From a virus, in the IMG/VR virus record IMGVR_UViG_3300013133_000053, positions 1 through 27,390 of that record: DNA of 27,390 nucleotides; one strand, given 5' to 3'. The translations under genes and the position numbers were made by a program. How positions within the stretch are numbered: position 1 is the first letter of the stretch; each line of letters starts with the position of its first letter. Under the pieces are notes generated by a model, which was not told the DNA's origin, ran no database searches, and worked only from the letters and a program-made list of their open reading frames with translations. Positions 3-25,350 of this stretch are shown one piece after another.

Positions 3-545
3 ACACCCAACGAACTTTTAAAAGTATTAAGTATAGATTCTGAGTATGAGGTTAGGGCATCAGTAGCTAGTAATACTAATACCCCCATTGAAGTTTTAAA
101 AGTATTGAGTACAGATGCTGAGACTTGGGTTAGAGATGTAGTAGCTAGTAATCCTAATTTACCTATTGAAGTTTTAACAAAAAATCACGATAAATTACAA
201 GTAAAAAATAGCAATTTTAAAAAATTAATAGTTACTCATCCTTATAATTATTTAGATATAGGAGATACAAGTTATAAGGCAGTATATGAACAACAAGCAA
301 ACCAACTGTGGAGTGTTTCGGTATCCCAATCTAGCCCATTCATTGTTTTTTTAAGTACTTTATGTCCACAACACATCCTTAACCCCTCCCAAAATGCTAA
401 AAACTTAGAGTTGTTGAATACCCTAGTAGAACAAGCTAAAAAATACTGCCCAAGTATTAAAGATAAAGAAGATTTTATAGCAATTTATAAAACTTTTAAA
501 GAAACTTTTGAAAACTTAAAGACTGTTTCTTTTAATAAGCTATAA
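3..545 (+). CDS. LRV/HEAT-like repeat protein, 5' end outside window
   Basis: The frame is open from the left edge, so the protein starts upstream; the only nearby start-like codon is a TTG at 105 inside a repeat, which I do not accept as the start. Two tandem 26-residue units are visible (nt 3-80 and 81-158), each of the form TPxELLKVLSxD...VRxxVASNxN, followed by a degenerate third (LPIEVLTKNHDKL) and a unique C-terminal region of about 115 residues. The pattern (VRxxVAxNPN then TPxxxLxxL) matches the variant leucine-rich repeat (LRV) type of helical repeat, usually a protein-binding scaffold. No catalytic motif is seen. Related repeats occur in two other genes of the window (8733-8933 and 25833-26297, both minus strand). 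Stop is TAA; the next gene starts 11 nt later. Function unknown; the repeat assignment is fairly secure. Confidence 0.75.
   Translation, partial: TPNELLKVLSIDSEYEVRASVASNTNTPIEVLKVLSTDAETWVRDVVASNPNLPIEVLTKNHDKLQVKNSNFKKLIVTHPYNYLDIGDTSYKAVYEQQANQLWSVSVSQSSPFIVFLSTLCPQHILNPSQNAKNLELLNTLVEQAKKYCPSIKDKEDFIAIYKTFKETFENLKTVSFNKL
65..161. repeat. DNA-level repeat arm (inverted copy at 8748-8844)
   Basis: This 97-nt stretch of the first LRV gene aligns without gaps to the reverse complement of 8748-8844 (inside the 8733-8933 gene), with about 17 mismatches by hand count. There is one perfect 20-nt core (114-133 with 8776-8795). The two copies encode equivalent LRV units on opposite strands. Confidence 0.6.
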
Positions 546-3829: not shown

Positions 3830-4145
3830 CTAGTTTAATCCGTCTCTCCCCTCTTTTGTTTAAAAGGGTTTTTTTAATAATTCCGTTAGTACGATTTATT
3901 TGAATGAGCTCATCTCCAATAATATCCCTAGCATGATTCCGAGCCCTAGCTGTAATTATTTTTTGAAAATCTTTAGTTATTTTTTTATTAGTAGCTGGGT
4001 TAATGGTTTCTAAAAATAAAGCATTGGGAACGCCCAACACAACTTCCATCCTGGTATTGTGAGTGGGGCATACCACCTCTTTTTTAAAAGTTTCCTTAGT
4101 GTGTGTACAGCCTAGTTGGGTACATTTGAATTTATTTAAAGGCAA
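3819..4145 (-). CDS. Small Zn-ribbon protein between SbcC-like and RuvC-like genes
   Basis: The frame is open from 4193, but an ATG start there would overlap the SbcC gene by 58 nt. I prefer the TTG at 4145 (or the adjacent ATT at 4148), preceded by GGAG, which reduces the overlap to 10 nt; this gives about 108 residues. From that start the N-terminus reads LPLNKFKCTQLGC and later CPTH, a C-x4-C...C-x2-H set typical of a zinc finger/ribbon. The C-terminal half is basic and helical (ARARNHARDIIGDE) and looks nucleic-acid binding. Its place in the recombination operon suggests a role with the nuclease or resolvase. No family is recognised. Confidence 0.65.
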   Translation of the reverse strand: MPLNKFKCTQLGCTHTKETFKKEVVCPTHNTRMEVVLGVPNALFLETINPATNKKITKDFQKIITARARNHARDIIGDELIQINRTNGIIKKTLLNKRGERRIKLDDI

Positions 4146-6136
4146 AATTGAGTTACTCCATCTCGAAGTTCTACATGAGTAATTTGAGTACAAATAGCTT
4201 TAACAACTGAATTGTGCTCTATCATTAACGTTGGGTCAGTTCTACGGTTCAAAAGGGTGATAACTCTTTCCATTGAAGCCTCACTGAGGTCTTTAAACGC
4301 TTCATCTAAAAACAAGCAGGTAAAGGGGGTTCCACACCGTTCTTTAGTTATTTCCCCCAAAGCTAAATCAGTAGCTAAACATAATCGTTTAAATTGGCCC
4401 CCAGAGCACAAACCCAAAGGTCGGGGGGTCCCATTTATTATAACATCAGTTTCTATTTTGAAGTCTACGTTAGAGAAGGTTAAAGAAACAGGCATACCAA
4501 ATAATTCATTTAGGAACTTCTCTACTTTTTGATTTAAGAGATTCAAAGAATTTGTGAATACCCACGATTTTACATCCCGAAAAGCATCTTTTAGGGTTTC
4601 TAGCTTAGCTAGATTAAGGTGTATATCACTTAACTTAAAATCTGAAGCATGTATACTTTCTTGAAGATTGGTAGCTTCAACACTTTTATTATCTAACATT
4701 TGGGTTAATTCTTTAGTGTTGGGGGGGTTATTCACTTCATTAGTAATATCCACATTGAGTTTAGATACCACTTCCCATTTGTGTGTTATACTTAACTCAT
4801 TCTTTTCTAAATCCCCAAGGATAGTTCTGTGTTTGTCTTGATATTCTTTATACAGCTTTTCTTTTTCAGAAAACCCCTTAAGAGCCAAATTTATAGCCTT
4901 TAATTTTTCCTTCAAGGATTCCACAATTGGTGGTTTTTCTGGTGGGTTATTTTCCAAATCTACTAACCTAACTTGTAAGTTATCGTGGTCCTCTAATAAT
5001 TTAATCTTTTTTGCTTCAGTTTTGGAGTGAGAAGAAAGAATCTTTTCTAATTGTTTGTTTTTATTAGATAAAAGGGATTCTTTCCCTCCCTCCCAGGGCT
5101 TTTCACATGTGGGGCATAAAGGGTCTTTTTCTTTTTGAATCTGTTTTATGGATTCTTTAATTTCTTTGATTTCAAGTTGTTGTTCTGATATGAGATCCCC
5201 TAACTCTTTTATGCTGTTTGTAGAGTTTTCGAGTAATTGTTGAGTTCCTACTAAATCTTTAGAGTGTTTATCAAAGGCATTTTGGATCTTGTCTACAGCC
5301 TCTAGTTTGCTAGTTATGTCATATTTAACTTTGAGGATCTTAGACTCATCATCTTTATTGGGGGGCTCAATTTTACCCGCTCCATCTAAATGTGCTAAAA
5401 GACCAATTAAAGTAATTTTTTTAGAATTTAAAACCTCTAACTCTTGTTGGGCTGTTACTATTAATTCTTTTTTCTGAACCAAGTTTTTTTGATGAGTATC
5501 TTGTAATTGTTTTATATTAGAAGATAAAATCTTAATGGCTTCTTTAACTCCCTGTAGTTTAGCCTCACTCAAGGATCTCTCTGTAGATACGTCTTGAACT
5601 TGAGTTTTACAAGATTTGATACGATCTTTAACTTCTTCCCTAGCTTCATCGTAAATTTTTAAATTCTGGATTTCAGAAAGAATTTTAGACTTAGCTTCTT
5701 GATTAGAAGATAAAAACTTTTGTGGATAGTTTTGTGGGAAATATAAAGTTTGACAAAATGTGTCAAAACTCAAACCCACCGCCTTTTCGACTAATGATTG
5801 TGTTTCTTTTAAATCCTTACCCCTAATCTCCATCCCATCCTTAATTAACACAAGATCGTTAGGGTTTCTAGTTCTGGTTATTGTAATCCCACCAAACTCT
5901 ACGCTTACGGAACACGTTTTTTTACCAAAATGTATAACTTCATCAATTTTGGTATCTTTTGGGAGTTTCCCAAAAATACACCAACTAGGGGCGTTTAAAA
6001 TTGCACTTTTCCCGGAACCCTCTCCAGTCATATCATCATAATTAAAACCTGTTATTAAAGTAACTCCAGGCCCTAATTCAAACTCCAAAGTTTCCCAACT
6101 AAGAAAGTTTTTAGCTTTAATTTTTAAAGCTGTCAT
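4136..6136 (-). CDS. SbcC/Rad50-like recombination ATPase (T4 gp46-like)
   Basis: ATPase subunit of the two-gene nuclease complex that resects DNA ends. In 666 residues the order is: Walker A with GEGSGKS (38-44), Q-loop region (FPQNYPQ, 133-139), a long coiled coil (about 160-335), a CPTC zinc hook (Cys341, Cys344), the returning coiled coil (about 350-520), then the ABC signature LCSGGQFKR (576-584), Walker B FTCLFLDE (605-612) and His641 (IEHN). The arms are short compared with bacterial SbcC (about 1000 residues), as in phage gp46. The partner SbcD-like gene lies 25 nt upstream. The stop is TAA, overlapped by the Zn-ribbon gene. Confidence 0.92.
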   Translation of the reverse strand: MTALKIKAKNFLSWETLEFELGPGVTLITGFNYDDMTGEGSGKSAILNAPSWCIFGKLPKDTKIDEVIHFGKKTCSVSVEFGGITITRTRNPNDLVLIKDGMEIRGKDLKETQSLVEKAVGLSFDTFCQTLYFPQNYPQKFLSSNQEAKSKILSEIQNLKIYDEAREEVKDRIKSCKTQVQDVSTERSLSEAKLQGVKEAIKILSSNIKQLQDTHQKNLVQKKELIVTAQQELEVLNSKKITLIGLLAHLDGAGKIEPPNKDDESKILKVKYDITSKLEAVDKIQNAFDKHSKDLVGTQQLLENSTNSIKELGDLISEQQLEIKEIKESIKQIQKEKDPLCPTCEKPWEGGKESLLSNKNKQLEKILSSHSKTEAKKIKLLEDHDNLQVRLVDLENNPPEKPPIVESLKEKLKAINLALKGFSEKEKLYKEYQDKHRTILGDLEKNELSITHKWEVVSKLNVDITNEVNNPPNTKELTQMLDNKSVEATNLQESIHASDFKLSDIHLNLAKLETLKDAFRDVKSWVFTNSLNLLNQKVEKFLNELFGMPVSLTFSNVDFKIETDVIINGTPRPLGLCSGGQFKRLCLATDLALGEITKERCGTPFTCLFLDEAFKDLSEASMERVITLLNRRTDPTLMIEHNSVVKAICTQITHVELRDGVTQFCL

Positions 6137-6161: not shown

Positions 6162-7145
6162 TTAAACTTTTCGTAAAATATTTAAACCTAAGTCTATAGT
6201 ATCGGGGTTTAAAGAGTTTTCTTTAGCCCAAAGTTCAAATAGTTTTAAATTGTCTAAAGTTTCATCTACCCCCAAACTTAAATTTTGTGTTACATCTGCC
6301 TTTTTTAAAATTTTAGTACTTGGGGGGAAACCATCTACTTTAAACTCATCTACAGCTTCTTTACTGCCCGTAAGAATGACTCTATTATAATCCTTTGTAT
6401 TCAACGTGGGGGTAATGGGATTGGGGCTTCCACAGTCTATATAATAGGTTTTATGTTTTGGAAAATTAGTTTCTACTAACTCTAGGTTCATTTCAGGAAG
6501 ATGTAATACTCCTAAATACTTAGTCTGATCGCTTTCTCCGAAACTATGACTAAAGGGGGTTCCTAAAAAAGTTATGTTCCCATTTTCAGCATATTTATGA
6601 AAATGCCCACTGATTACCTTAAGTTTTTTGGGAATATCACTAGGGGATATTTCTCCACTAGACTTCCCTGTAGCTATTAACCCATTACCATAGTCAAACC
6701 CTATAACCCCTTGGTGCATAAAGAGAAGTTTTGGATTTTCCTTCTTAAATTGTAATAAAGCCTTTTTAAATTCCTCTATATCATGAAAATAAGGAAAAAA
6801 GAGTGTGGAAATAGCCCCCTTCTCGCACTCTACAGGAATGAGAGTTGGTTTATCTACAATGGTTACGTTTTCTAAAACCTTGAGGACTTCTTGAGAGTGT
6901 TCTTTACACTCTAAGTTAAACCAACAATGATTCCCAATTAATAGAGTATGGTTTAGTTTAGAAGTGGATAAATAATCAAATAAGGCGTTAATACACCTAC
7001 CCCTAATTAATTCTTTAGTATCCAACTGGTCCCCTAACCACACACAATCATTACCCATAGATTCTACCAACCCGAATAATTTAGATATGGTATCTAAATT
7101 ATCTGGTTTAATGTGGGGGTCCCCTATTATAGTTAGTTTAGTCAT
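6162..7145 (-). CDS. SbcD/Mre11-like nuclease (T4 gp47-like)
   Basis: Calcineurin-type metallophosphoesterase that supplies the nuclease of the gp46/47-like complex. Motifs in the 327 residues are DPH (Asp9, His11), GDQLD (Asp39), GNH (Asn72, His73), MHQG (His144) and SGHFH (His181, His183), i.e. the full two-metal set. In most relatives GNH is followed by Asp or Glu; here it is Cys74. The catalytic His itself is present, so I expect an active enzyme. The start ATG shares one base with the UvsX stop (TAATG), indicating coupled translation. Confidence 0.9.
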   Translation of the reverse strand: MTKLTIIGDPHIKPDNLDTISKLFGLVESMGNDCVWLGDQLDTKELIRGRCINALFDYLSTSKLNHTLLIGNHCWFNLECKEHSQEVLKVLENVTIVDKPTLIPVECEKGAISTLFFPYFHDIEEFKKALLQFKKENPKLLFMHQGVIGFDYGNGLIATGKSSGEISPSDIPKKLKVISGHFHKYAENGNITFLGTPFSHSFGESDQTKYLGVLHLPEMNLELVETNFPKHKTYYIDCGSPNPITPTLNTKDYNRVILTGSKEAVDEFKVDGFPPSTKILKKADVTQNLSLGVDETLDNLKLFELWAKENSLNPDTIDLGLNILRKV

Positions 7146-8732: not shown

Positions 8733-8933
8733 TTACAAAACTTTACAAAAATTAGGGTTACAAGCTACTAATGCCCTAACCCAAGTCTCAGCATCCATAC
8801 TCAATGCTTTTAAAAGCTCAATGGGTGTATTACAATTATGAGCTACTGATTCCCTAATCCACTTATAATGATCCTCTGCACTCAATACTTTTAAACTTTC
8901 AATGAGTGTATTATGGTTCCTAGCTCCCGTCAT
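8733..8933 (-). CDS. Short LRV-repeat protein (66 aa)
   Basis: ATG 8933 has AGGAG at 9 nt spacing, so this is a genuine short gene and not simply a remnant. It consists of little more than two LRV units: NTLIESLKVLSAEDHYKWIR and ESVAHN, then NTPIELLKALSMDAETWVRA and LVACNPNF, ending in CKVL. The second unit is close in DNA sequence to the + strand unit at 65-161, which suggests duplication and inversion within the phage. A two-unit solenoid is small for a stable fold, so it may be a truncated copy that is still translated, or it may oligomerise. Function unknown. Confidence 0.65.
   Translation of the reverse strand: MTGARNHNTLIESLKVLSAEDHYKWIRESVAHNCNTPIELLKALSMDAETWVRALVACNPNFCKVL
8748..8844. 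repeat. DNA-level repeat arm (inverted copy of 65-161)
   Basis: Reverse-complement partner of 65-161; see the finding on LRV genes. The similarity at nucleotide level, including many third codon positions, points to a fairly recent duplication rather than to protein-level selection alone. Confidence 0.6.
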
Positions 8934-10293: not shown

Positions 10294-10886
10294 GGAATCT
10301 CCTCAAGTGATGCAGTAAATGGTGGTGGGCTAACTTTAAAAGCCCACCCGTTAGTTAGTTTGAAATCTAAATCAAATTGCTCGTATAGCTTTGATAAAGC
10401 GTTTTTATTCTCAGCTATTTTATGAACAGAAGATCGTACATCCCTATAATCTTCTAATAACACGGAAATAAAAGAAAAATTACTAATTGCTCTCCCAAAA
10501 CAACTAAATAATAAACGATCTAAGTCCAAATACCCAAAACCCTCATAATAGGCATTTACGACTTCTGGTTTTAATCCCTTTTGTAGATATGATATTCCTT
10601 TTAAGACAAGTGGATCAAAAAGTTTTAAATTTTTAACTAAACTATCAAGGGGTTGGGGTAAATTAGTCTGGATTATTTCTACATTCCCCACAGATATTAA
10701 TTTAGTCTGTATGGCGGCCATAATTAAAATAATACTATCTTTTGGAGATATACTAATATTGAAAGATTCTGATTCCCCTAAACAAGAAAACACCCCCTGA
10801 ATAAAATAATTTCTTCCCACAACTTCCCACAAATCTTTGTGGGATATTTGTTTATATGGGTGTTGTGTATTATGTGGATTATACAT
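10290..10886 (-). CDS. Hypothetical protein downstream of DNA polymerase (198 aa)
   Basis: ATG 10886 shares one base with the polymerase stop (TAATG), so it is translationally coupled to the polymerase. The protein is soluble, mainly helical, with aromatic-rich segments (YYEGFGYLDLDRLLFSCFG) and a Pro-rich end (SPPPF). No motif of a known replication factor is visible. Coupling suggests a function in replication or a structural partner of the polymerase, but this is only positional inference. It ends at TGA overlapping the holin-like gene's start. Confidence 0.6.
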   Translation of the reverse strand: MYNPHNTQHPYKQISHKDLWEVVGRNYFIQGVFSCLGESESFNISISPKDSIILIMAAIQTKLISVGNVEIIQTNLPQPLDSLVKNLKLFDPLVLKGISYLQKGLKPEVVNAYYEGFGYLDLDRLLFSCFGRAISNFSFISVLLEDYRDVRSSVHKIAENKNALSKLYEQFDLDFKLTNGWAFKVSPPPFTASLEEIP

Positions 10887-13543
10887 TATTTTGCATCCCT
10901 AAGATTATTAGCAATAATGGGTTCGGCCAACATTGGTATATCTACTTTAGTAGTATATAGGTTTTTTTCCATTTTGTCTTTAAAAATAGAGGCTCCTAGT
11001 TCGCTTTGTTCATCTTTAACATACCCAATTAGCTCATCATGAACTTGTAGCACTAAATAAGCATCTACATTATGAATTTTGCAACCCCTAACTACTTCTA
11101 GCATAGCTCTATTGGTTATATGACTGGCTAAACCTTGGATAGGAAAGTTTTTAGAATTATTCAACTCGTTCTTAAACAAAGATCTAACATAAGTCCAACT
11201 TCCCTTTTTTAGTATATCGCTATATTTTATACCCGTTTCTTGAGAAAAATACTTTAAGGCATCCTCGTTTAGTCCACATTCAGTGTTAGGGTTTTCTAAT
11301 AAACTTTTTTTACAATCCAAAAACTCATCAACCCCAATATTAAAATTATTTAAAATCTCAAATACAATCTTTGTATAATTAAAATGTCTCTTGCGGCCAA
11401 TCAAGGTTTTAACATAACCTTTCGTAAGGCTATCATGTTCACACTTTTTCATATACTTTCTAAGTTCTGGATAAGCGTCTAAGTATTGGTTAACTACTTC
11501 CCACCCCCCCTCAACATCTAAAGACTCCTTGTGTTTTCCAGTCTTTTTGTCAAAAAAGAATCTTCGTAAACCCATTAAAGAGGCAACTTGGGGACCCCTA
11601 CTCCCATAAGGTATTGATAAAGCTATTCCTTTATATTTATTACGATTATTTTTATCTTCTGAAGAACCAGATTTTTTAAGGTTTCTATAAGGCTCTTGAT
11701 GAATGTCACAATAAATTTTAGAATAAAAATCTAAATCTTTTGTGAAAATTTCTTTAAGTTTAGGGTCTCCAGAGTTAAAAGCGAATAATCTAGGTTCTGC
11801 ACTAGCCCAATCTGCCGCAACTATTTTATACCCCGGAGGAGCTATAAAAGCTTTTTTAATACCAGAACTAGCTAAATTTTCTAGGTCTACGTGCCCACAA
11901 TCTTGACAGATGACGTCAAAAATCAACTCGTTTTGAAAATGTTTAGTAATGTTGGTTGAGTCACATTTAATACAATTATCATACTCTTCAGCTTTTGGGA
12001 GAGTGTGAAGGTTAAAGCCCCCAGAACAAGCGAATCGACCCGATACGGTTCCATTTTGTTTCATATCCATATAAAGATAACCATCTCTATTTAGAGCCAA
12101 GGCAGTACAAATATAACTATCATAAAGCTTAATTAGCTTTTTCCAAAGCATTAAGTCAGCAACCCAAGGGTACTTCTCTAAAAAGAACTCTTCTAACACC
12201 TCAGCTCCCATAGACGGGATTGGATTATCTTTGGTTGCTGAATCAGTTTGAGGCAGCTTTGATTTATCGTGTTGGAGTTGATCACAAAATAACCACCGAA
12301 GGTGCATTGAAGATCCGATATTAAAACTATATCTCTTACCCCCAGTAGCTTCCACAAAAATATCTTGTTTAATTTTCTTTATTTGATTCAAACTGTAAGG
12401 AATCTCTGTTTCCCCTAAACACCAACTCCAAACCCAGTGAGGATTTTGTTGATAGTGTTTCTTAAGTTCAGCTTTAGACAACGTTTCTTTGTATGTATTA
12501 GTTTTTTTATCAAACTTAGTAGGATAAGATAACCCCTCTAATTCAATAACCTTTTTCACAAACTTACCATTAGTTACCACTTCATTGAAGCTTTTCCCAA
12601 TATTAAAATTTGTTAAAAGGGGGTTGATCTCAACTATAATTCTATCTTCTAACTCTTCCAGCTTTATTTTGGTTTCCCTTTCCATTTTTGAAAATAAGTC
12701 TACGTCAACAAGGACTCCCTTGCGCTTCATGGGAATAACTACTTCTTTACAAACTGGCATAACCTCATCTTTGAAAAACCAGTCTAACATTTCTGGCCCC
12801 AAATCAGCTATAAATTTTTTTATCCCAACTTCAAATACTCCAAAAGTTAGGAAAGTATCAGCTATAGCATACTTGGCTAAAGTTTCTGGCTCGGCTCTCC
12901 AAACATTTTTATTCCTACTATTATAGAGTCCCCCATTACGTATAATTGTGGTTCCTAACTCTTTTTGTTCTTGATTAGATAAGGCGTGGGGATTAATCCC
13001 TAATTCTTCTTTCCACTCTTCGGCTGTATCTTTTAACCCATTGCGAGTGTTTTCATTAATTACATGAACTAATAAAGAAGTATCTAGAAAAACCCTATCA
13101 CTAAGGTCTATTCCTGTGTTAGCCCAAGTTTGGTTAACATCAAATGGAGCATTGTGCATAATAAGAGATGTGTTAGAAAACCAAGACCGCATATACTCTA
13201 TTATAAACTCAGGAATTTTATATTCTTTTGGGGTTACAAATTCTGGGTAAGTTTTTCCAGTCCAATGATCTATAAAATGACCGTTTTGAAAAACCTCTAT
13301 TTTTTCTTTGTCTATGGTTATAGTTTTAGTGGATTTGGTATCTGGGACCCAAGTAAGCAGGGGGACATAAAATCCAGATTTACTATCTAATGAGAAAGAA
13401 AAACCAATTAAGCAGGTTTCATAAAGATTTAACCCATTAGTTTCAGTGTCATAAGACATGTACTTTGGTTTTTTTTCTTGTAAAAAAACATGTACTTTCT
13501 TTAAGTCCTTTTCTGTGGAAAGGTAATTATATTTTTTAAACAC
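10886..13543 (-). CDS. polA: Family A DNA polymerase with 3'-5' exonuclease
   Basis: 885 residues, GTG start. Exonuclease domain: YDTETNGL (Asp32, Glu34), HNAPFD (Asn131, Asp135), YAIAD (Tyr225, Asp229). Polymerase motif A: AADWASAEPR (Asp578, Glu583, Arg585). Motif B: RNKYKGIALSIPYG (Arg634, Lys638, Leu642, Tyr646). PIQGLASHI at 801-809, motif C QVHDEL (His835, Asp836, Glu837). All catalytic residues are present, so replicative synthesis with proofreading is expected. No 5'-3' nuclease domain. Two oddities: Leu642 aligns with E. coli Phe762, and a CxxC...CxxC insertion (Cys524, 527, 546, 549) lies just before motif A. The gene follows the helicase by 4 nt. Confidence 0.95.
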   Translation of the reverse strand: MFKKYNYLSTEKDLKKVHVFLQEKKPKYMSYDTETNGLNLYETCLIGFSFSLDSKSGFYVPLLTWVPDTKSTKTITIDKEKIEVFQNGHFIDHWTGKTYPEFVTPKEYKIPEFIIEYMRSWFSNTSLIMHNAPFDVNQTWANTGIDLSDRVFLDTSLLVHVINENTRNGLKDTAEEWKEELGINPHALSNQEQKELGTTIIRNGGLYNSRNKNVWRAEPETLAKYAIADTFLTFGVFEVGIKKFIADLGPEMLDWFFKDEVMPVCKEVVIPMKRKGVLVDVDLFSKMERETKIKLEELEDRIIVEINPLLTNFNIGKSFNEVVTNGKFVKKVIELEGLSYPTKFDKKTNTYKETLSKAELKKHYQQNPHWVWSWCLGETEIPYSLNQIKKIKQDIFVEATGGKRYSFNIGSSMHLRWLFCDQLQHDKSKLPQTDSATKDNPIPSMGAEVLEEFFLEKYPWVADLMLWKKLIKLYDSYICTALALNRDGYLYMDMKQNGTVSGRFACSGGFNLHTLPKAEEYDNCIKCDSTNITKHFQNELIFDVICQDCGHVDLENLASSGIKKAFIAPPGYKIVAADWASAEPRLFAFNSGDPKLKEIFTKDLDFYSKIYCDIHQEPYRNLKKSGSSEDKNNRNKYKGIALSIPYGSRGPQVASLMGLRRFFFDKKTGKHKESLDVEGGWEVVNQYLDAYPELRKYMKKCEHDSLTKGYVKTLIGRKRHFNYTKIVFEILNNFNIGVDEFLDCKKSLLENPNTECGLNEDALKYFSQETGIKYSDILKKGSWTYVRSLFKNELNNSKNFPIQGLASHITNRAMLEVVRGCKIHNVDAYLVLQVHDELIGYVKDEQSELGASIFKDKMEKNLYTTKVDIPMLAEPIIANNLRDAK

Positions 13544-13547
13544 AAGG

Positions 13548-14438
13548 TTATTCTTCTACAGTTTTAATTTGGGATGTTAGTCGTTTTAACCTAGTAAATT
13601 CTGGAGTATTTCTATATCCAGTCACTCTTTTCTTATCTTCCTTTTCTTTTTCTTCGAGGGCTATGGGTAGAAGGTCATTAAAATCTTTCTTTTGGGCTTC
13701 AGACAAAGGAATTAAGAGCTCGTTTTCCCCATTATATGATAATAGAAGCCTTTCATAATTACGAACAGGGTCTGAGGAAGATTGATGTCTGATTTTTGCA
13801 TATTGCCAAGCCAAAATACGATGCTTGGTTAAATGTTGAACTCGCAACAAAGGTTGCCAAATAGAAATTATGTAGTCCACTGTCCACTCAAACGCTGATG
13901 TTCCATAAGCTCCATCTTTATCAATAGGAGTATCCCCTTGACCCTTCCCTTTAGTGGTCTGAGTTAGCACGATAAGAAACACATCTAATAGCTTAGCTAG
14001 TGGTTTAAGTGCTTTACAAAGAGTGGTGGAGCTAATACTACGAGTATTTCCCCAACCACCCCCCAGCTCTCCCTCTACCCCAAAGGTAGGTTGTTGAGAA
14101 ATATCTACCACATTATTTACAATCCCTATATAATCTATAGCTACTGCTGCTATATTTTTTTTGGTATACTCTTTCAAGTCATTACATAACCACACTATAT
14201 CTTGTAGCCCTATATTCCTTGGCTCCCCCTTTTCATCTTCATTAGAGATTACATAAAGACGGTTTGAAGCGTCTGAATCTCGTCCCACTAGTCTAATCCA
14301 CTTATCAATAATTTCTCGTTCTGGCATTTCTAAACTAAAAAATACAAAAATATCATCTACTTCGGGGTTGTTTTCTATAAAACTTTTAAACACGTTAAGA
14401 GTGATAGTGGTTTTACCAATTCCCGGTGCTCCAATCAA
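13548..14438 (-). CDS. DnaB-type (SF4) helicase domain, in frame with the primase across a TGA
   Basis: RecA-fold replicative helicase: Walker A GAPGIGKTT, an acidic VFFSLEMP (H1a-like, catalytic Glu), VAIDYIGIV (Walker B Asp) and FLIVLTQTTKGKG (H3-like), then the conserved Arg-rich end. If read alone its first start-like codon is a TTG (14438) only three residues before the P-loop. That would delete beta strand 1 (TQILGLIG), and there is no Shine-Dalgarno. Upstream codons back to the TGA at 14462-14460 are open and in frame with the primase, so the coding continues across the stop. The natural product is very likely a primase-helicase fusion. C-terminal tail is Lys/Glu-rich. Alternatives are stop readthrough, a strain mutation or a base-call error. 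Confidence 0.8.
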   Translation of the reverse strand: MIGAPGIGKTTITLNVFKSFIENNPEVDDIFVFFSLEMPEREIIDKWIRLVGRDSDASNRLYVISNEDEKGEPRNIGLQDIVWLCNDLKEYTKKNIAAVAIDYIGIVNNVVDISQQPTFGVEGELGGGWGNTRSISSTTLCKALKPLAKLLDVFLIVLTQTTKGKGQGDTPIDKDGAYGTSAFEWTVDYIISIWQPLLRVQHLTKHRILAWQYAKIRHQSSSDPVRNYERLLLSYNGENELLIPLSEAQKKDFNDLLPIALEEKEKEDKKRVTGYRNTPEFTRLKRLTSQIKTVEE

Positions 14439-14459
14439 CCCTAAGATCTGTGTTTTTCT

Positions 14460-15536
14460 TCAAGGGTTAGTTAAACAATCAAAATATTCAGGGCCATTTA
14501 CGGGTTCTCTGAGAGCAAAGGTCGCTTCTGGGCTTTGTAACCGCTCAGCTATAGAAGCAAATTTAACCGAAGTTTTAGGTTGTGGAGACTCGTATACTTT
14601 ACTCACTGTAAGGTCTGCGTACTCAGACCTATGTAAACCTTTAGAGAGAGCTTTTTGAGTATTCAATAACACATTAAAAGTGTCTTTCTTACTAAGACCC
14701 CTCCCCTTTAAAATATTAGCTAAAGCTAAATCAGCCCCGCTCCTATCTCCATAAAACTCTGTGGGGTTAGTAAATAGTTCGTAGATTCTATTATTTTGGT
14801 AAAGTAATTCTATAAAACTCTCAGGGAGTTGGCCCACATCTACATCGTCTGCGAACTCAAAAGGGATTTTCCCTGCGACCCTATCCAAATGGTTAATTAT
14901 TTTTGTAGTTTGCTCTGAAGTAATTAACGGGACTACTAATTCTAATAATTGAGCACTGGTGTAGGTGACATTTTTTTTTAAACTTATCACCTTCGCTAGT
15001 TTGGGTTCTCCATACACTTTAGTATTATAGGTGTTTGGAACCCGCATAAGTTGCATTATAGTCCAAATGGATGGATCAGTTTTAAAGCGGTTAATTAACC
15101 CGTGTTGTAATATACAATACGTTTGTTTTGTTAAATCAGAAACCCTCCAATACGCATGTATTCCATTACCTGAGTCTATTATAATAGTGGGTGTTAAGCC
15201 AAACGTAGATAATTCTTTCAAAAAGTCTTCTTTAGAAGAGTATTCACCATGCTTTAAGTCCATATCCACAAAAACGTATTGAAAGACGTCTATATTCTTT
15301 CCACTCAAGAAATTTATGTTTAATTCTTCATAAACATTCGTGCTGGGGTGGTTCGGGAACCAATAGGAGTTGAATCCCATTAGATTCTTTTCAGTTACTT
15401 CAGACAAAGAAAGTTTACCCTCAATAACATTAGGGCCTGGAATATCTTCTACAAAATCAGGATTATCAACCCAAACCCCTTGTGAGATAATTTTCTTTTT
15501 TCCCCATTCTGGTTTTAATAATCTATAAAAAGACAA
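14460..15536 (-). CDS. PrimPol (archaeo-eukaryotic type) primase domain
   Basis: Catalytic core of the AEP primase family: YVFVDMDLKHG (Asp91, Asp93), IIDSGNGIHAYWR (His127) and LMRVPNTYNTK (Arg165), in the order DxD, SGxGxH and RxPxTxN. It would make primers (or prime and extend) for the phage replisome. A helical C-terminal part (about 240-345) is typical of the linker to a helicase. The start is TTG 15536, supported by AAGGAG at 8 nt spacing. The frame ends at TGA 14462-14460 after YFDCLTNP and is followed in frame by RKTQILGLIGAPG of the helicase. Length 358 residues is normal for a PrimPol domain in a fusion. Confidence 0.85.
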   Translation of the reverse strand: MSFYRLLKPEWGKKKIISQGVWVDNPDFVEDIPGPNVIEGKLSLSEVTEKNLMGFNSYWFPNHPSTNVYEELNINFLSGKNIDVFQYVFVDMDLKHGEYSSKEDFLKELSTFGLTPTIIIDSGNGIHAYWRVSDLTKQTYCILQHGLINRFKTDPSIWTIMQLMRVPNTYNTKVYGEPKLAKVISLKKNVTYTSAQLLELVVPLITSEQTTKIINHLDRVAGKIPFEFADDVDVGQLPESFIELLYQNNRIYELFTNPTEFYGDRSGADLALANILKGRGLSKKDTFNVLLNTQKALSKGLHRSEYADLTVSKVYESPQPKTSVKFASIAERLQSPEATFALREPVNGPEYFDCLTNP

Positions 15537-15605: not shown

Positions 15606-15923
15606 TTAATCTTCCGAAAAAACTTCTACGTGATATTCATTCTCCAAATTTATAGATAGATTATAAGCTGGTTTATCGCTTTTCGTATTTGCAAGAACGT
15701 TACACCCCTTCACTAGAAAGTATTGATCGGTTTCCACATCTTGCCAAATTAACCGACCCTTTACAAAATCTTCTGGTTTATTTGCTCCAGGATCTAAGTT
15801 TTTGAAAGAAATGCTAAAAAAAGTATCCTTTTTATCCGATTGGTTTTCCCAAATAGCTCCAATTTGACGATACACCCCACCATCTTCTTTAGGGGGTGAT
15901 TTTTTCTTTTTACCAAGTGCCAT
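15606..15923 (-). CDS. Small OB-like protein, possible ssDNA-binding protein (105 aa)
   Basis: ATG 15923 with a strong TTAGGAG. The protein has a basic N-terminus (GKKKKSPPK), a beta-rich body with aromatic residues (QIGAIWEN, TFFSISFKNL, GRLIWQDVETDQYFLVKG) and an acidic C-terminal end (VEVFSED). Small size, aromatic strands and an acidic tail fit a phage SSB of OB fold, and the position next to primase, helicase and polymerase fits too. No SSB signature sequence can be seen, so this is an inference from size, composition and context. A strong terminator follows it directly, so it may be more abundantly made than the genes after it. Confidence 0.5.
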   Translation of the reverse strand: MALGKKKKSPPKEDGGVYRQIGAIWENQSDKKDTFFSISFKNLDPGANKPEDFVKGRLIWQDVETDQYFLVKGCNVLANTKSDKPAYNLSINLENEYHVEVFSED

Positions 15924-20087: not shown

Positions 20088-21827
20088 TCAACTTTCACAA
20101 GCTTTACACTCATCAGAGCCCACAGTGGTTACTTTTAGTCCCGCTTCAGATCTACAATAATATAATGTTTTTACTCCCAACTTCCATGCCAACAAATGAG
20201 TTTGGTTGTAAAAAACTGGGTCTACATCCTTATTAAAAAACAGGTTTAAGCTTTGGGATTGACAAACATATTTCTGTCGTTGGGCAGCTTGTCTAATTAA
20301 TGCTTGTGGGTTTATTTCATAAGCAGTCAGAAACACTTCTTTGTCTTCTGGCGAAAGAAAATCCAAACCTTGAACAGATCCCTCAGCTCTTATAATCGTT
20401 TTCCAAACTTTTTTATTATCTTGGTCATATTTTTCTTTTAACACTTTTTTAAGTAATGGGTTCTTCCTGTAAAATAGGCCCTTAGAAGATTTATCCGTAA
20501 AAGCATTACTTATCATGGGTTCTATGCCAAAAGAGACTCCACCAGATATTGTAGAATTTGATCTTGTGGGAGCTATCGCTATCCTATGGGAATTATATCT
20601 ACCGCTCCCAACACACCACTCAGGCTCTCCTAACTCTTGAGCTAAGGCTTTGGTAGTCTTTAAAGAGTCTGAATCTATAAACCTAAAAATTTGAGAATTA
20701 AGCTGCATGGCGTTAAAGGATTCAAACGGGATACCCTTTTCTTGTAATAGAGTATGCCAACCCAACACCCCAATCCCTATCGCTCTCCCCTTTTTAGCAT
20801 GTCTAACTACTTTTTCTAGATTTGGAATCGTAGACCCTTTTTGTATAAACTCATTCAAGACCCCATTCAAAAACAGAGTAGCTATTTGAGGCAAAGTAAG
20901 TCCATGACTCTCAAATGTTTTCCACTCTTCCCAATTAGCTAAATTCAAAGATGATAAACAGCAAATAAAGGAATGGTCTTCATCTGTGTGTAAAGTAATT
21001 TCTGAGCACAAATTTGTTAAATTAGTCTTTAATCCCAAAGCTTTATATGAATCTGGATCGGCTCTAGTAACTGTATCTATATACACGATATAGGGCTCTC
21101 CAGTTTCAAACCTAGTTTTTAAAATTTTAGACCACGTATCTTGGGCCTCTAGGTCTCCAGAAAACACCCTCTCTAAAAACTCATCGGGGATCAAGGCACA
21201 ATGATGGATGTTTCCACATTGACGATGAATGTCTCCTTTTGGCTTCCTCATATCTAAAAACTCGGGAAAATCTTTGTGGTTTACATTTAAATTGATTACT
21301 GCGGCTCCTCTACGAGAACCTTGGTTAATTCCTATAATTGTAGAATCATAAATTTTAGCAAAAGGAATAATCCCCTCTGTACTTCCATTATCTCCTCCTT
21401 TAATGGGTGTTCCCCTTGGTCTGATAGCATCAAAGCTAACTCCTACACCCCCTCCAACTTTAGTTAAAGCGGCTAATTCACTTGCTCCGGCCATAATACT
21501 GGAAATACTATCTTGGGGAGTAATCCCAAAACAAGAAATAGTTAACCCCCTAGATAAACCACTGTTGGATAATACTGGACTAGCCGGACATAGCCAATTA
21601 TTCCACAAAGTAGTAAAGAATAACTCTTGTAGCTGGTCTTGAGTTAAGCCTAAAATAGACTTAGAATCCCCCAGTAAATGTTTGGCCGCACTAGAGGCTA
21701 CTCGTATATACATATCTTTTGGGGTTTCGTCTTTAAACAAATATCCTTGAGAGATGGTTTTGAAACCCTCTATTTTATACCACTCCGGGGCTAAACCAGC
21801 TAGCTTTAATTCCTTCAACTTTTTCAT
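20088..21827 (-). CDS. nrdA: Ribonucleotide reductase, large (alpha) subunit, class I
   Basis: Converts ribonucleotide diphosphates to deoxy forms. Visible elements: ISCFG (Cys99, redox pair), TNLCSEI (Asn272, Cys274 thiyl, Glu276), CCLSSLN (second redox Cys), LYYCRSEAG (radical-path Tyr556/557) and a C-terminal CKAC (Cys574, 577) for re-reduction. It is 579 residues and starts directly in the catalytic domain, without the roughly 90-residue ATP cone, so dATP inhibition is probably absent. It follows nrdB by 11 nt and ends at TGA. Thioredoxin/glutaredoxin partner not in the window. Confidence 0.93.
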   Translation of the reverse strand: MKKLKELKLAGLAPEWYKIEGFKTISQGYLFKDETPKDMYIRVASSAAKHLLGDSKSILGLTQDQLQELFFTTLWNNWLCPASPVLSNSGLSRGLTISCFGITPQDSISSIMAGASELAALTKVGGGVGVSFDAIRPRGTPIKGGDNGSTEGIIPFAKIYDSTIIGINQGSRRGAAVINLNVNHKDFPEFLDMRKPKGDIHRQCGNIHHCALIPDEFLERVFSGDLEAQDTWSKILKTRFETGEPYIVYIDTVTRADPDSYKALGLKTNLTNLCSEITLHTDEDHSFICCLSSLNLANWEEWKTFESHGLTLPQIATLFLNGVLNEFIQKGSTIPNLEKVVRHAKKGRAIGIGVLGWHTLLQEKGIPFESFNAMQLNSQIFRFIDSDSLKTTKALAQELGEPEWCVGSGRYNSHRIAIAPTRSNSTISGGVSFGIEPMISNAFTDKSSKGLFYRKNPLLKKVLKEKYDQDNKKVWKTIIRAEGSVQGLDFLSPEDKEVFLTAYEINPQALIRQAAQRQKYVCQSQSLNLFFNKDVDPVFYNQTHLLAWKLGVKTLYYCRSEAGLKVTTVGSDECKACES

Positions 21828-21838
21828 GCAAACACCCT

Positions 21839-22819
21839 TTACATAATCGAATTTAAATTTAAGTTTTCAAACAAATTTTCTACGGTAAAATTACATTTTT
21901 TATAGTCCGTAACTCGGTTACTAAAAAAATCGGTCATCTTTCTGCCGTATAAAGTTTCTTCAAACCAGAACATACGATCTAAAGCAGCACCATCTATATT
22001 TTTCCAATTAATTTTAAGCCCTAATTCTAGAAGTTTTTGGTTTGCTCTCATCCTAATAAAGTTTTTTAAATCTTTTGAAGATAAGCCTCTAATATCTCCT
22101 AAAGAAAAGGCATGATCAATAAAGTTATCTTCCAACTCTACCGACAATCGGGCAGCATCATAAATTTCTTTTTTAAAATCAGCAGACCAAATATCATCAT
22201 TCTCTTCCATAAGTGTTCTAAATAACCAACAGCCTGCTTCGGAGTGCAAATTTTCATCCCGAACACTCCAACTAATGATAGTTTCAGTAGCTTGTAAAAG
22301 ATTAAATCTACTGAAGTTCATCAGGACTGCAAATGAGCTAAAAAGATTCACCCCCTCAGTGAAAGCACTAAAAATTGCTAAAGATCTAGCCTTTTCTCGT
22401 TTAGTTTTATTAGGAGTCATCTGAAGAGCATTCAGTTTAGCTACCGCAGTGGAGTCGTTCATAAATGCAGCATAATCATTTAATCCTAGTGAGTCGTTCA
22501 GATAAGAGTATGCTGCTGTATGAATCGATTCCCAAGCACTGAACGTACTAGCCATCATTTGGATTTCCGGCTTAGGAAACCATTTAGCAACGGTTCGCCA
22601 GTAGTCATTAACGCTAATTTCGGTTTGCGTAAAAGCATTAAGAATCTGGCCCACCACTTGGCGCTCTGCTTCAGTTAGCTTTGTTTTCCAATCTGAAATA
22701 TCTTTAGCCATAGACTCTTCCCAAGGCACCCAATGAGCATTTTGTTGAGCTTCAAAATACTCGTAAGCTTTTGGATATTCAAAAGGTTTATATACTACTC
22801 GTGGAGTAATTAGAGACAT
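21839..22819 (-). CDS. nrdB: Ribonucleotide reductase, small (beta) subunit, class I
   Basis: Ferritin-like radical subunit for NrdA. Metal ligands by motif: TQTEIS (Glu67), ESIH (Glu97, His100), radical Tyr104 in HTAAYSYL, FTEGVNL (Glu155), and RDENLH (Glu189, His192). The first ligand is Glu, where E. coli NrdB has Asp84; the radical Tyr is retained. The C-terminal tail (NLFENLNLNSIM) would dock into NrdA. Gene order nrdB then nrdA, with GroEL immediately upstream. Confidence 0.93.
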   Translation of the reverse strand: MSLITPRVVYKPFEYPKAYEYFEAQQNAHWVPWEESMAKDISDWKTKLTEAERQVVGQILNAFTQTEISVNDYWRTVAKWFPKPEIQMMASTFSAWESIHTAAYSYLNDSLGLNDYAAFMNDSTAVAKLNALQMTPNKTKREKARSLAIFSAFTEGVNLFSSFAVLMNFSRFNLLQATETIISWSVRDENLHSEAGCWLFRTLMEENDDIWSADFKKEIYDAARLSVELEDNFIDHAFSLGDIRGLSSKDLKNFIRMRANQKLLELGLKINWKNIDGAALDRMFWFEETLYGRKMTDFFSNRVTDYKKCNFTVENLFENLNLNSIM

Positions 22820-22840
22820 GATAAGTATACTCTTAAATTA

Positions 22841-24451
22841 TTATTTTTTAATTATGATACCGCCGCCAGCGGTAGATAGTAATGTAGCTATAGATACAGC
22901 ATTTTCTAAAGCAGTTCTAGTAACCTTAACTGGGTCCACAATACCTGCTGCTAAAAAGTTTTCTATTAGGAGGTTTTGGGCGTTACACACTAAGTTTGAT
23001 TCCGCTAATATATTTAACCTCAACTTTTGTATAAGCTCGCTTGGAACCCCAACGTTTTCTAAAATCTGAATAAATGGAGTTTGTAAGGCTTTTCTAAGAA
23101 TCTTCTCCCCCAAGTTAATTTGATTGGATGTTGGAAAAACTTCCTCAGCTAAACGCAATAAGGCGCACCCACCTCCAGGTACTACTCCCTCTTGAATTGC
23201 GGCTCTAGCTGCGTTCAGTGCATCCTCAATTCTATCGTACTTCTCCTTAATCTCAAATTCTGTTGCTCCCCCAACCCCAATTTTAGCTATACCTTGAGTT
23301 AAAGAGGCTAATCGTTCCCCAATGAGTTGTGCATCATAAGGACTTTCTGCTACATCTTTGAGCTCTCTCAAATGATTAACTCTAGCCAGAACAGCTTCTT
23401 CAGTCCCAGCCCCATTATAAAAAGTAGTAGTATATTTAGTAACTACCACTTTTTCACAAGTGCCAAAATCTTTTGGGTTAGCTTCTGTTAAAGATCTGTT
23501 TCCATTTCCTAACCTTTGGGCACCCAACAACACTACTAGATCATCATAATACCCAGTCCTAATATAAGTTGTGTGGGGGCCTTTTACTGGGACTACAGTT
23601 AAACCTATTTCCATTTTTTGGGCCAACAACCACGTAATTACTTCTGGATGAAAATCGTTAGCTATTAACACTATGGGTGGAAACTCTACCTTCTTAGTAG
23701 CTTGTGCGTATTTTTCTAAAACAGAAATTAGTAAGGAATAACTATTTAAATCCCCATCGTAAACTAAAATAATGGGATTGTTTGCTTCAAAAGTAGTATT
23801 GTTACGGGCGTTAAAAAACCTATCTCTAGCTTCTGCCCCTCTATTAATTTGATACCCATCAACTACAGTGAGTGTAGTATGTAGCCCAACACCCTCATCC
23901 ACCGTAATGATCCCATCTACCCCCACCTCTGAAAAAGCTTCTCCTATAATGTCCCCAATATCAGAATCCCCGTTGGCAGAGATTGCAGCTACTTTAGAGA
24001 TAAGGTTTTTATCTTTTACTGGAACAGCTATGGTTTTCAGAGCCTCTTTAATTTTGTTAGCTGCAACTTCAATTTCTAGGCGCAACATTTGAGGGTTAAT
24101 TTGGGAGTCAGTCTTTAAAACTTTTAAAGATTCTAATAGAATAGCCTCCCCTAATACCACTGCGGAAGTAGTTCCATCTCCAGCTTTAGTGTTTGTTTGT
24201 TGACAAATAGCTTTAACTGCTTGAATAACCAAATCTATTTTAGGGTCTGGGTCAGAACACTCTACTGCTACACTCACCCCATCCTTAGTGATTTTGGGCC
24301 CCAGTGGGTCTCCGTTTAGCTGTTGTCCGATCCGTTCAATAAGAATAGGAAGCCCTCCGGGTCCTAAAGTACGCTTAACTATAGAAGCAATTTTTGTCAT
24401 CCCCTGAACCAGCGGGTCTTGTAGATCTTCTTTACTAATGATTTCTTTCAC
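22841..24451 (-). CDS. groEL: Phage GroEL-like chaperonin
   Basis: 536 residues with GroEL layout: KRTLGPGG and ITKDGVSVA near the N-terminus, GDGTTSA (91-97, ATP-hydrolysis Asp92), VPGGGCALL in the returning equatorial domain, and VDPVKVTRTALENAVSIA near the C-terminus. The GGM tail of bacterial GroEL is missing (ends GGGIIIKK). GTG start with a strong GGGAGAAGG. There is no GroES gene in the window, so it either works with host GroES, like some phage chaperonins that do not need it, or has a partner elsewhere. It lies between thyA and nrdB. Presumed substrate is a phage protein such as the capsid or RNR. Confidence 0.92.
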   Translation of the reverse strand: MKEIISKEDLQDPLVQGMTKIASIVKRTLGPGGLPILIERIGQQLNGDPLGPKITKDGVSVAVECSDPDPKIDLVIQAVKAICQQTNTKAGDGTTSAVVLGEAILLESLKVLKTDSQINPQMLRLEIEVAANKIKEALKTIAVPVKDKNLISKVAAISANGDSDIGDIIGEAFSEVGVDGIITVDEGVGLHTTLTVVDGYQINRGAEARDRFFNARNNTTFEANNPIILVYDGDLNSYSLLISVLEKYAQATKKVEFPPIVLIANDFHPEVITWLLAQKMEIGLTVVPVKGPHTTYIRTGYYDDLVVLLGAQRLGNGNRSLTEANPKDFGTCEKVVVTKYTTTFYNGAGTEEAVLARVNHLRELKDVAESPYDAQLIGERLASLTQGIAKIGVGGATEFEIKEKYDRIEDALNAARAAIQEGVVPGGGCALLRLAEEVFPTSNQINLGEKILRKALQTPFIQILENVGVPSELIQKLRLNILAESNLVCNAQNLLIENFLAAGIVDPVKVTRTALENAVSIATLLSTAGGGIIIKK

Positions 24452-24516
24452 AACCTTCTCCCATTAAGTTTTTTTCCGATACTTATTTAAAAACCTTCAC
24501 AAAATAAACTTAAAAA

Positions 24517-25350
24517 TTAAACAGCGATTGGAGCCCTTATTGCTGAATGGTGGGTATACCCCTCAAACGTTATATCTTCAAATGTAAAATTATTTATATC
24601 ATCTACATCTGGATTTAAAACCAACCTGGGTAATGGTAGGGGGTCCCTTTTTAATTGCAAAATAGCTTGATCAACATGGTTGCTATAAAGGTGTACATCA
24701 CCATAGGTGTGGATAAAATCACCCACACCAAGACCACAAACTTGGGCAATTAAGTGGGTAAGCAGTGCGTAACTAGCTATATTAAAAGGTGTTCCTAAAA
24801 ACACATCTCCAGACCTTTGGTATAACTGACAAGAAAGCTTGTTATCTCTTACATAGAATTGAAATAAGCAATGGCAACTACAAAGTGCAGCCTTTCCTAA
24901 ACCCACATTCAAGTGTGGCTTTACGTTTGGAAGGGGTATAAATTGTGGGTTCCAAGCAGATACTACTATTCTTCTAGAATAAGGATCTTGTTTAATTAAA
25001 TCAATGGCGTTTTGAATTTGATCAACAACTCTACTTCTGGTTAACGGCCAATTTCTCCATAAAGTGGGGTACATAGGTCCTAAATCCCCCTCTTTTGTTG
25101 CCCAAGGTTCCCAAATAGATACCTTATTATCCCTTAAATACTGAATATTACTAACTCCCCTCAACATCCATATTAGTTCATGAACTACGGAATCAGTATA
25201 AATTTTTTTAGTGGTTACTAATGGAAACCCTTTAGTAAGATCGTATTTAACTTGTTCTCCAAAGAGGGATAAAGTTCCAACCCCCGTTCTATCAATGCTT
25301 GGAGTCCCTTGATTCAATACTTTTTCTAACAACTTTAAATACGATTCCAC
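24517..25350 (-). CDS. thyA: Thymidylate synthase (ThyA type)
   Basis: Methylates dUMP to dTMP using methylene-tetrahydrofolate. 277 residues with the full signature: Arg21 (DRTG), WMLRG, a CHC segment with catalytic Cys159 before His160, FQFYV, QRSGDVFLGTPFNIASYALL and HTYGDVHLY. An insertion of about 12-15 residues (IPLPNVKPHLNVGLGK) lies just before the active-site Cys, and the usual Pro-Cys is Ser-Cys here. C-terminus ends IAV, matching the family's essential C-terminal tail (usually API-V/A). Works with the dCMP deaminase of this window. Gap of 65 nt to groEL. Confidence 0.95.
   Translation of the reverse strand: MESYLKLLEKVLNQGTPSIDRTGVGTLSLFGEQVKYDLTKGFPLVTTKKIYTDSVVHELIWMLRGVSNIQYLRDNKVSIWEPWATKEGDLGPMYPTLWRNWPLTRSRVVDQIQNAIDLIKQDPYSRRIVVSAWNPQFIPLPNVKPHLNVGLGKAALCSCHCLFQFYVRDNKLSCQLYQRSGDVFLGTPFNIASYALLTHLIAQVCGLGVGDFIHTYGDVHLYSNHVDQAILQLKRDPLPLPRLVLNPDVDDINNFTFEDITFEGYTHHSAIRAPIAV

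Follow-up and report, generated by a model that had tools for sequence, protein, structure and literature searches.

An in-frame TGA at an invariant tryptophan codon of a fused phage primase-helicase gene is probably a lineage-specific one-base change

On the minus strand of the window, the 27,390-nt stretch of viral DNA analysed here, a PrimPol-type primase and, after it, a DnaB-type helicase share a single reading frame (15536-13548), whose sole interruption is a TGA codon at 14462-14460, exactly where the first-pass annotation had placed it. The primase frame ends with ...EYFDCLTNP-TGA, and past the TGA the same frame continues with RKTQILGLIGAPGIGKTT... (Table 1). The locus thus poses the question of whether this stop is a regulated device that makes two products from one gene, as in the programmed readthrough suggested by that annotation, or one of the two other readings it offered, a stop mutation or a wrong base.

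Table 1 Features of the primase-helicase locus.
Feature	Coordinates	Strand	Details
PrimPol (archaeo-eukaryotic/RepB-type) primase part of the fused gene	14460..15536	-	358 codons, TTG 15536 to TGA
In-frame TGA at the invariant-Trp codon	14460..14462	-	residue 359 of the fusion; CCT (Pro) before, A after (UGA-A)
DnaB-type helicase remainder	13548..14459	-	303 codons; P-loop GAPGIGKTT; TAA end 13550-13548; without a usable start of its own
Family A DNA polymerase gene	10886..13543	-	GTG start four bases after the TAA of the fusion; same order in relatives
Small conserved gene upstream of the fusion	15606..15923	-	upstream in relatives too (homologues in L007 and L040)

The start codon of the frame has a good ribosome-binding site (AAGGAG) and coincides with the start in the relatives described below. 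The primase part contains the PrimPol motifs VFVDMDLK and DSGNGIHAYW, both common to the relatives, and matches PHROG DNA primase families in a profile search; Pfam RepB_primase yields a weak match in 4 of 12 family members, and the window's own primase sequence has no Pfam match. The helicase remainder matches Pfam DnaB_C (E=3.7e-8) and the PHROG DnaB-like replicative helicase (E=1e-14), and the read-through protein, in which the Walker A motif GAPGIGKTT is present, scores 35.4 bits against DnaB_C, for which the curated cut-off is 27.

A direct search with the helicase recovered a single relative, and the adjacent polymerase led to six close relatives (L007-L012) and two more distant ones (L013 and L014); with a junction pattern allowing TGG or TGA and a second pattern, placed in a different helicase motif, the close set grew to 13 (L007-L012, L035 and L038-L043, of which L035 and L041 are partial, the contig or the locus ending there). 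All 13, about 37-49% identical to the window over both parts, have one unbroken fused frame with TGG (Trp) at the position of the window's TGA, in clear support of the initial suggestion that TGA had replaced TGG by a one-base change, and separate primase and helicase genes occur in none of them. Eight of these (L007-L012, L042 and L043) were found via the polymerase or the other helicase motif, that is, by searches blind to the junction, so that this subset is unbiased towards Trp at that position. The junction pattern itself matched 11 contigs, all with TGG, and its TAA/TAG version matched zero contigs, so that the relatives yielded no stop codon, whether TGA, TAA or TAG, at the junction. 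When the window's TGA is translated as Trp and the 12 full-length proteins are aligned, every one has Trp at position 359; L013 and L014, the two more distant relatives, are likewise fused, with Phe (TTT) at this site. The junction of the relatives reads P-W-R-K/R/T or a close variant, with Pro as the usual family residue before the codon, in agreement with the PWRK-type sequence that the first-pass annotation had expected from related ATPases.

In the complete relatives, the fused proteins are 654-676 aa long, and the family A polymerase gene lies directly downstream of the fusion wherever the locus extends that far. The window shares with them homology over both domains and the same neighbour, and its frame is continuous save for the TGA; sequence comparison clearly points to its membership, by descent, in the family of fused PrimPol primase/DnaB helicases. 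Given that the relatives are all fused and have TGG, the fused state is ancestral, and the window differs from it by a single TGG-to-TGA transition or by a wrong base. No same-species copies of the junction were found in IMG/VR, in a search from which near-identical records may have been withheld; a search of genome contigs yielded only a distant Photobacterium DnaB-like helicase without a primase, and in phage records the helicase part had no match and the primase had only distant ones, mostly from Pseudomonas phages such as PaMx11. The window itself is a fragment; contigs of 101-121 kb carry its longest relatives.

Several other genes of the window are of note in their own right. A minus-strand block (20088-25350) encodes the large and small subunits of ribonucleotide reductase and thymidylate synthase and is interrupted by the gene for a Cpn60/GroEL family chaperonin (22841-24451, minus strand; Pfam E=2.7e-41), with ~54% identical homologues in several relatives. 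An SbcC/Rad50-like ATPase gene (AAA_23; 4136-6136, minus strand) adjoins a gene that is conserved in relatives (6162-7145, minus strand), as in phage recombination nuclease pairs. Two genes on opposite strands, at 3-545 (plus) and 8733-8933 (minus), encode repeats of the motif 'N/TPIELLKALSxDxExxVR', which resemble variant leucine-rich repeats.

The location of the stop relative to the two domains bears directly on a two-product design. The DnaB_C match in the read-through protein begins at residue 351 (profile position 8), 8 residues ahead of the stop, whereas with the helicase remainder alone it begins at profile position 24. In the predicted structure of the read-through protein (mean pLDDT 77, pTM 0.46, the relative placement of the two domains being uncertain), a low-confidence flexible linker spans residues 318-343, the first helicase strands follow the linker, and residue 359 belongs to a short strand directly ahead of beta 1; with domain placement uncertain, whole-model structure matches revealed little beyond the DnaB fold. 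In this model, the stop is ~15 residues into the folded helicase domain, not in the linker, so that the TGA, initially described as lying at the domain junction, is indeed near the boundary but inside the helicase fold. This would be a poor site for a designed boundary between two products. On the combined sequence evidence, the best explanation of the gene appears to be one fused replicative primase-helicase (RepB/PrimPol-type primase and DnaB-type helicase), not a designed two-product gene.

We consider it highly likely that the TGA is a lineage-specific one-base change at the conserved Trp codon, with roughly even chances of a recent nonsense allele and of a wrong consensus base. In the fused gene, 52 transitions would create a stop codon, and the change from TGG to TGA at this site is one of them. 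The helicase part retains 44 of the 48 columns that are invariant in the other 11 full-length members, which is within the range of the relatives, and on the terminal branch of the window it is not accelerated (0.557, compared with 0.743 for the primase part). Because a helicase left untranslated for long would have decayed, this lack of decay or acceleration indicates that the change is recent, erroneous or bypassed.

The sub-case of a consensus or assembly error, in which the true base is G and the gene is an ordinary fused one, is contained in the estimate for a one-base change rather than additional to it, and we put it at somewhat under an even chance. It would account for a single-base difference at an invariant residue upstream of an undecayed helicase, and for the fact that this is the sole in-frame stop in any homologue-covered gene of the 27 kb. 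Against an error, the base is not marked as unreliable and the rest of the sequence is clean: no internal stops or frameshifts were found in other window genes among those with homologues in the fetched relatives, and wider damage to the contig was rejected on this ground.

If the base is real, most ribosomes would end after the primase part and a stub of the helicase fold, whereas published work would lead one to expect a small full-length fraction, produced when tRNA-Trp of the host misreads UGA-A in the ordinary way. UGA with a following A is especially liable to such misreading (PMC5289835), which agrees with the leaky context named in the first-pass annotation, and insertion of Trp would restore exactly the conserved residue. 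Rates of readthrough differ widely by host, from ~12% in E. coli to 0.04-0.08% in Pseudomonas with one reporter (PMC9481147). Phage T7 can replicate with its processivity factor, thioredoxin, made only via stop-codon leakage, in very few copies (PMC12645430). Together, the leaky UGA-A, the restoration of Trp and the T7 tolerance of few copies suggest that a real nonsense allele could be viable. Two considerations nevertheless weigh against a one-base change. For a replicative helicase, the cost of a nonsense allele should be high, and such an allele should rarely become the consensus. In addition, the stop lies near the boundary of two activities, is the leakiest of the stops in a leaky context, and is one whose misreading restores the native residue; chance yields this position, leaky context and Trp identity only a few percent of the time, in a count made post hoc, and we regard the combination as mildly suggestive.

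Programmed, that is, selected, UGA readthrough, which would make mostly primase alone plus a set, minor share of fusion containing Trp from tRNA-Trp, would draw on the same leakiness, and we consider it improbable. In its favour, the frame past the stop is intact and shows no acceleration, Trp is the residue mostly inserted when E. coli reads through TGA (PMC11126739), the T7 thioredoxin case provides a precedent, and the codon before the stop specifies Pro, which at the C terminus slows peptide release (PMC7246954). However, this Pro is merely the usual residue of the family, this position is a sense codon in all 13 relatives, the stop falls within the folded helicase, and the prior for such a mechanism is low. 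Downstream RNA structure stimulates readthrough in many, not all, such genes, and no stable or unusual structure was detected around or downstream of this stop (folding compared with shuffles, z of 0.28, 0.03 and 1.0). The GTG of the polymerase gene has a weak ribosome-binding site four bases past the helicase-frame stop (13541-13550, minus strand), and judging from this spacing, translation of the polymerase is probably coupled to that of the helicase, so that the upstream TGA could harm polymerase output; scarce helicase translation would then probably lower the polymerase, too, a further point against selection for the stop. The specific regulated readthrough put forward at the outset is therefore not borne out by the relatives, the mRNA or the domain layout. 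We assign a similarly small chance to a version in which the TGA arose through one base change in a fused ancestor and is real and fixed, and misreading by host tRNA-Trp doses a little fusion against an excess of free primase.

The possibility of two genuinely separate genes, with helicase translation beginning at TTG 14438 or, by reinitiation, at the TGA, is highly unlikely. This TTG is in frame, 7 codons past the stop, but in the start-codon scan AGGG abuts it without spacing, initiation there would lose conserved residues before beta 1 together with part of beta strand 1, and every relative is fused; the next common start codon, GTG 14393, is past the P-loop. With no usable start, a separate helicase start and reinitiation were both rejected. 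The initial view that the helicase has no good start of its own holds, as does its low opinion of the ribosome-binding site at TTG 14438. That TGA is a sense codon (Trp) in the phage or its host, finally, has next to no likelihood: the TGA sits on an invariant Trp and TGA ends only 4 of the 36 listed ORFs of the window, but Trp is encoded by TGG 123 times in the called genes, where global recoding would put TGA at many of the Trp positions, no second in-frame TGA occurs, the window has TGG at the four further conserved Trp columns of the fusion, three genes besides the primase frame terminate at TGA, translation with code 4 merges no other window genes, and neither the UGA-suppressor tRNA that had been proposed for a search nor any other tRNA was found in the window.

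For the most part, this locus is a case for caution: a stop near a domain boundary looked regulatory, and the family reveals a fused gene with a lone, lineage-specific stop at an invariant Trp. Should the base prove real and fixed, the phage would offer a natural experiment on the smallest amount of replicative helicase with which a phage can manage, in parallel with the laboratory finding on leaky thioredoxin in T7; if selected readthrough were true, this would be a replisome gene dosed by readthrough.

Among known systems, the fused primase-helicases of uncultured tailed phages in IMG/VR are like the window in domain order, length, start context and downstream polymerase and differ from it in having TGG for Trp (TTT for Phe in L013 and L014) in place of TGA. 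The helicase part resembles the C-terminal domain of the DnaB family (Pfam DnaB_C; G40P and E. coli DnaB) in profile and fold, but its N-terminal partner is a PrimPol-type primase rather than the DnaB N-terminal domain, and the first part of the domain precedes the TGA. The PrimPol motifs are shared with the RepB/RepB'-type archaeo-eukaryotic primases (Pfam RepB_primase), the version in the window being fused to a helicase. In phage T7, gene 4 (gp4A/gp4B) likewise provides primase and helicase at the fork from one gene, with a primase of the DnaG/TOPRIM type, and its short form arises from an internal start and keeps the helicase; the stop in the window, by contrast, would yield the primase alone.
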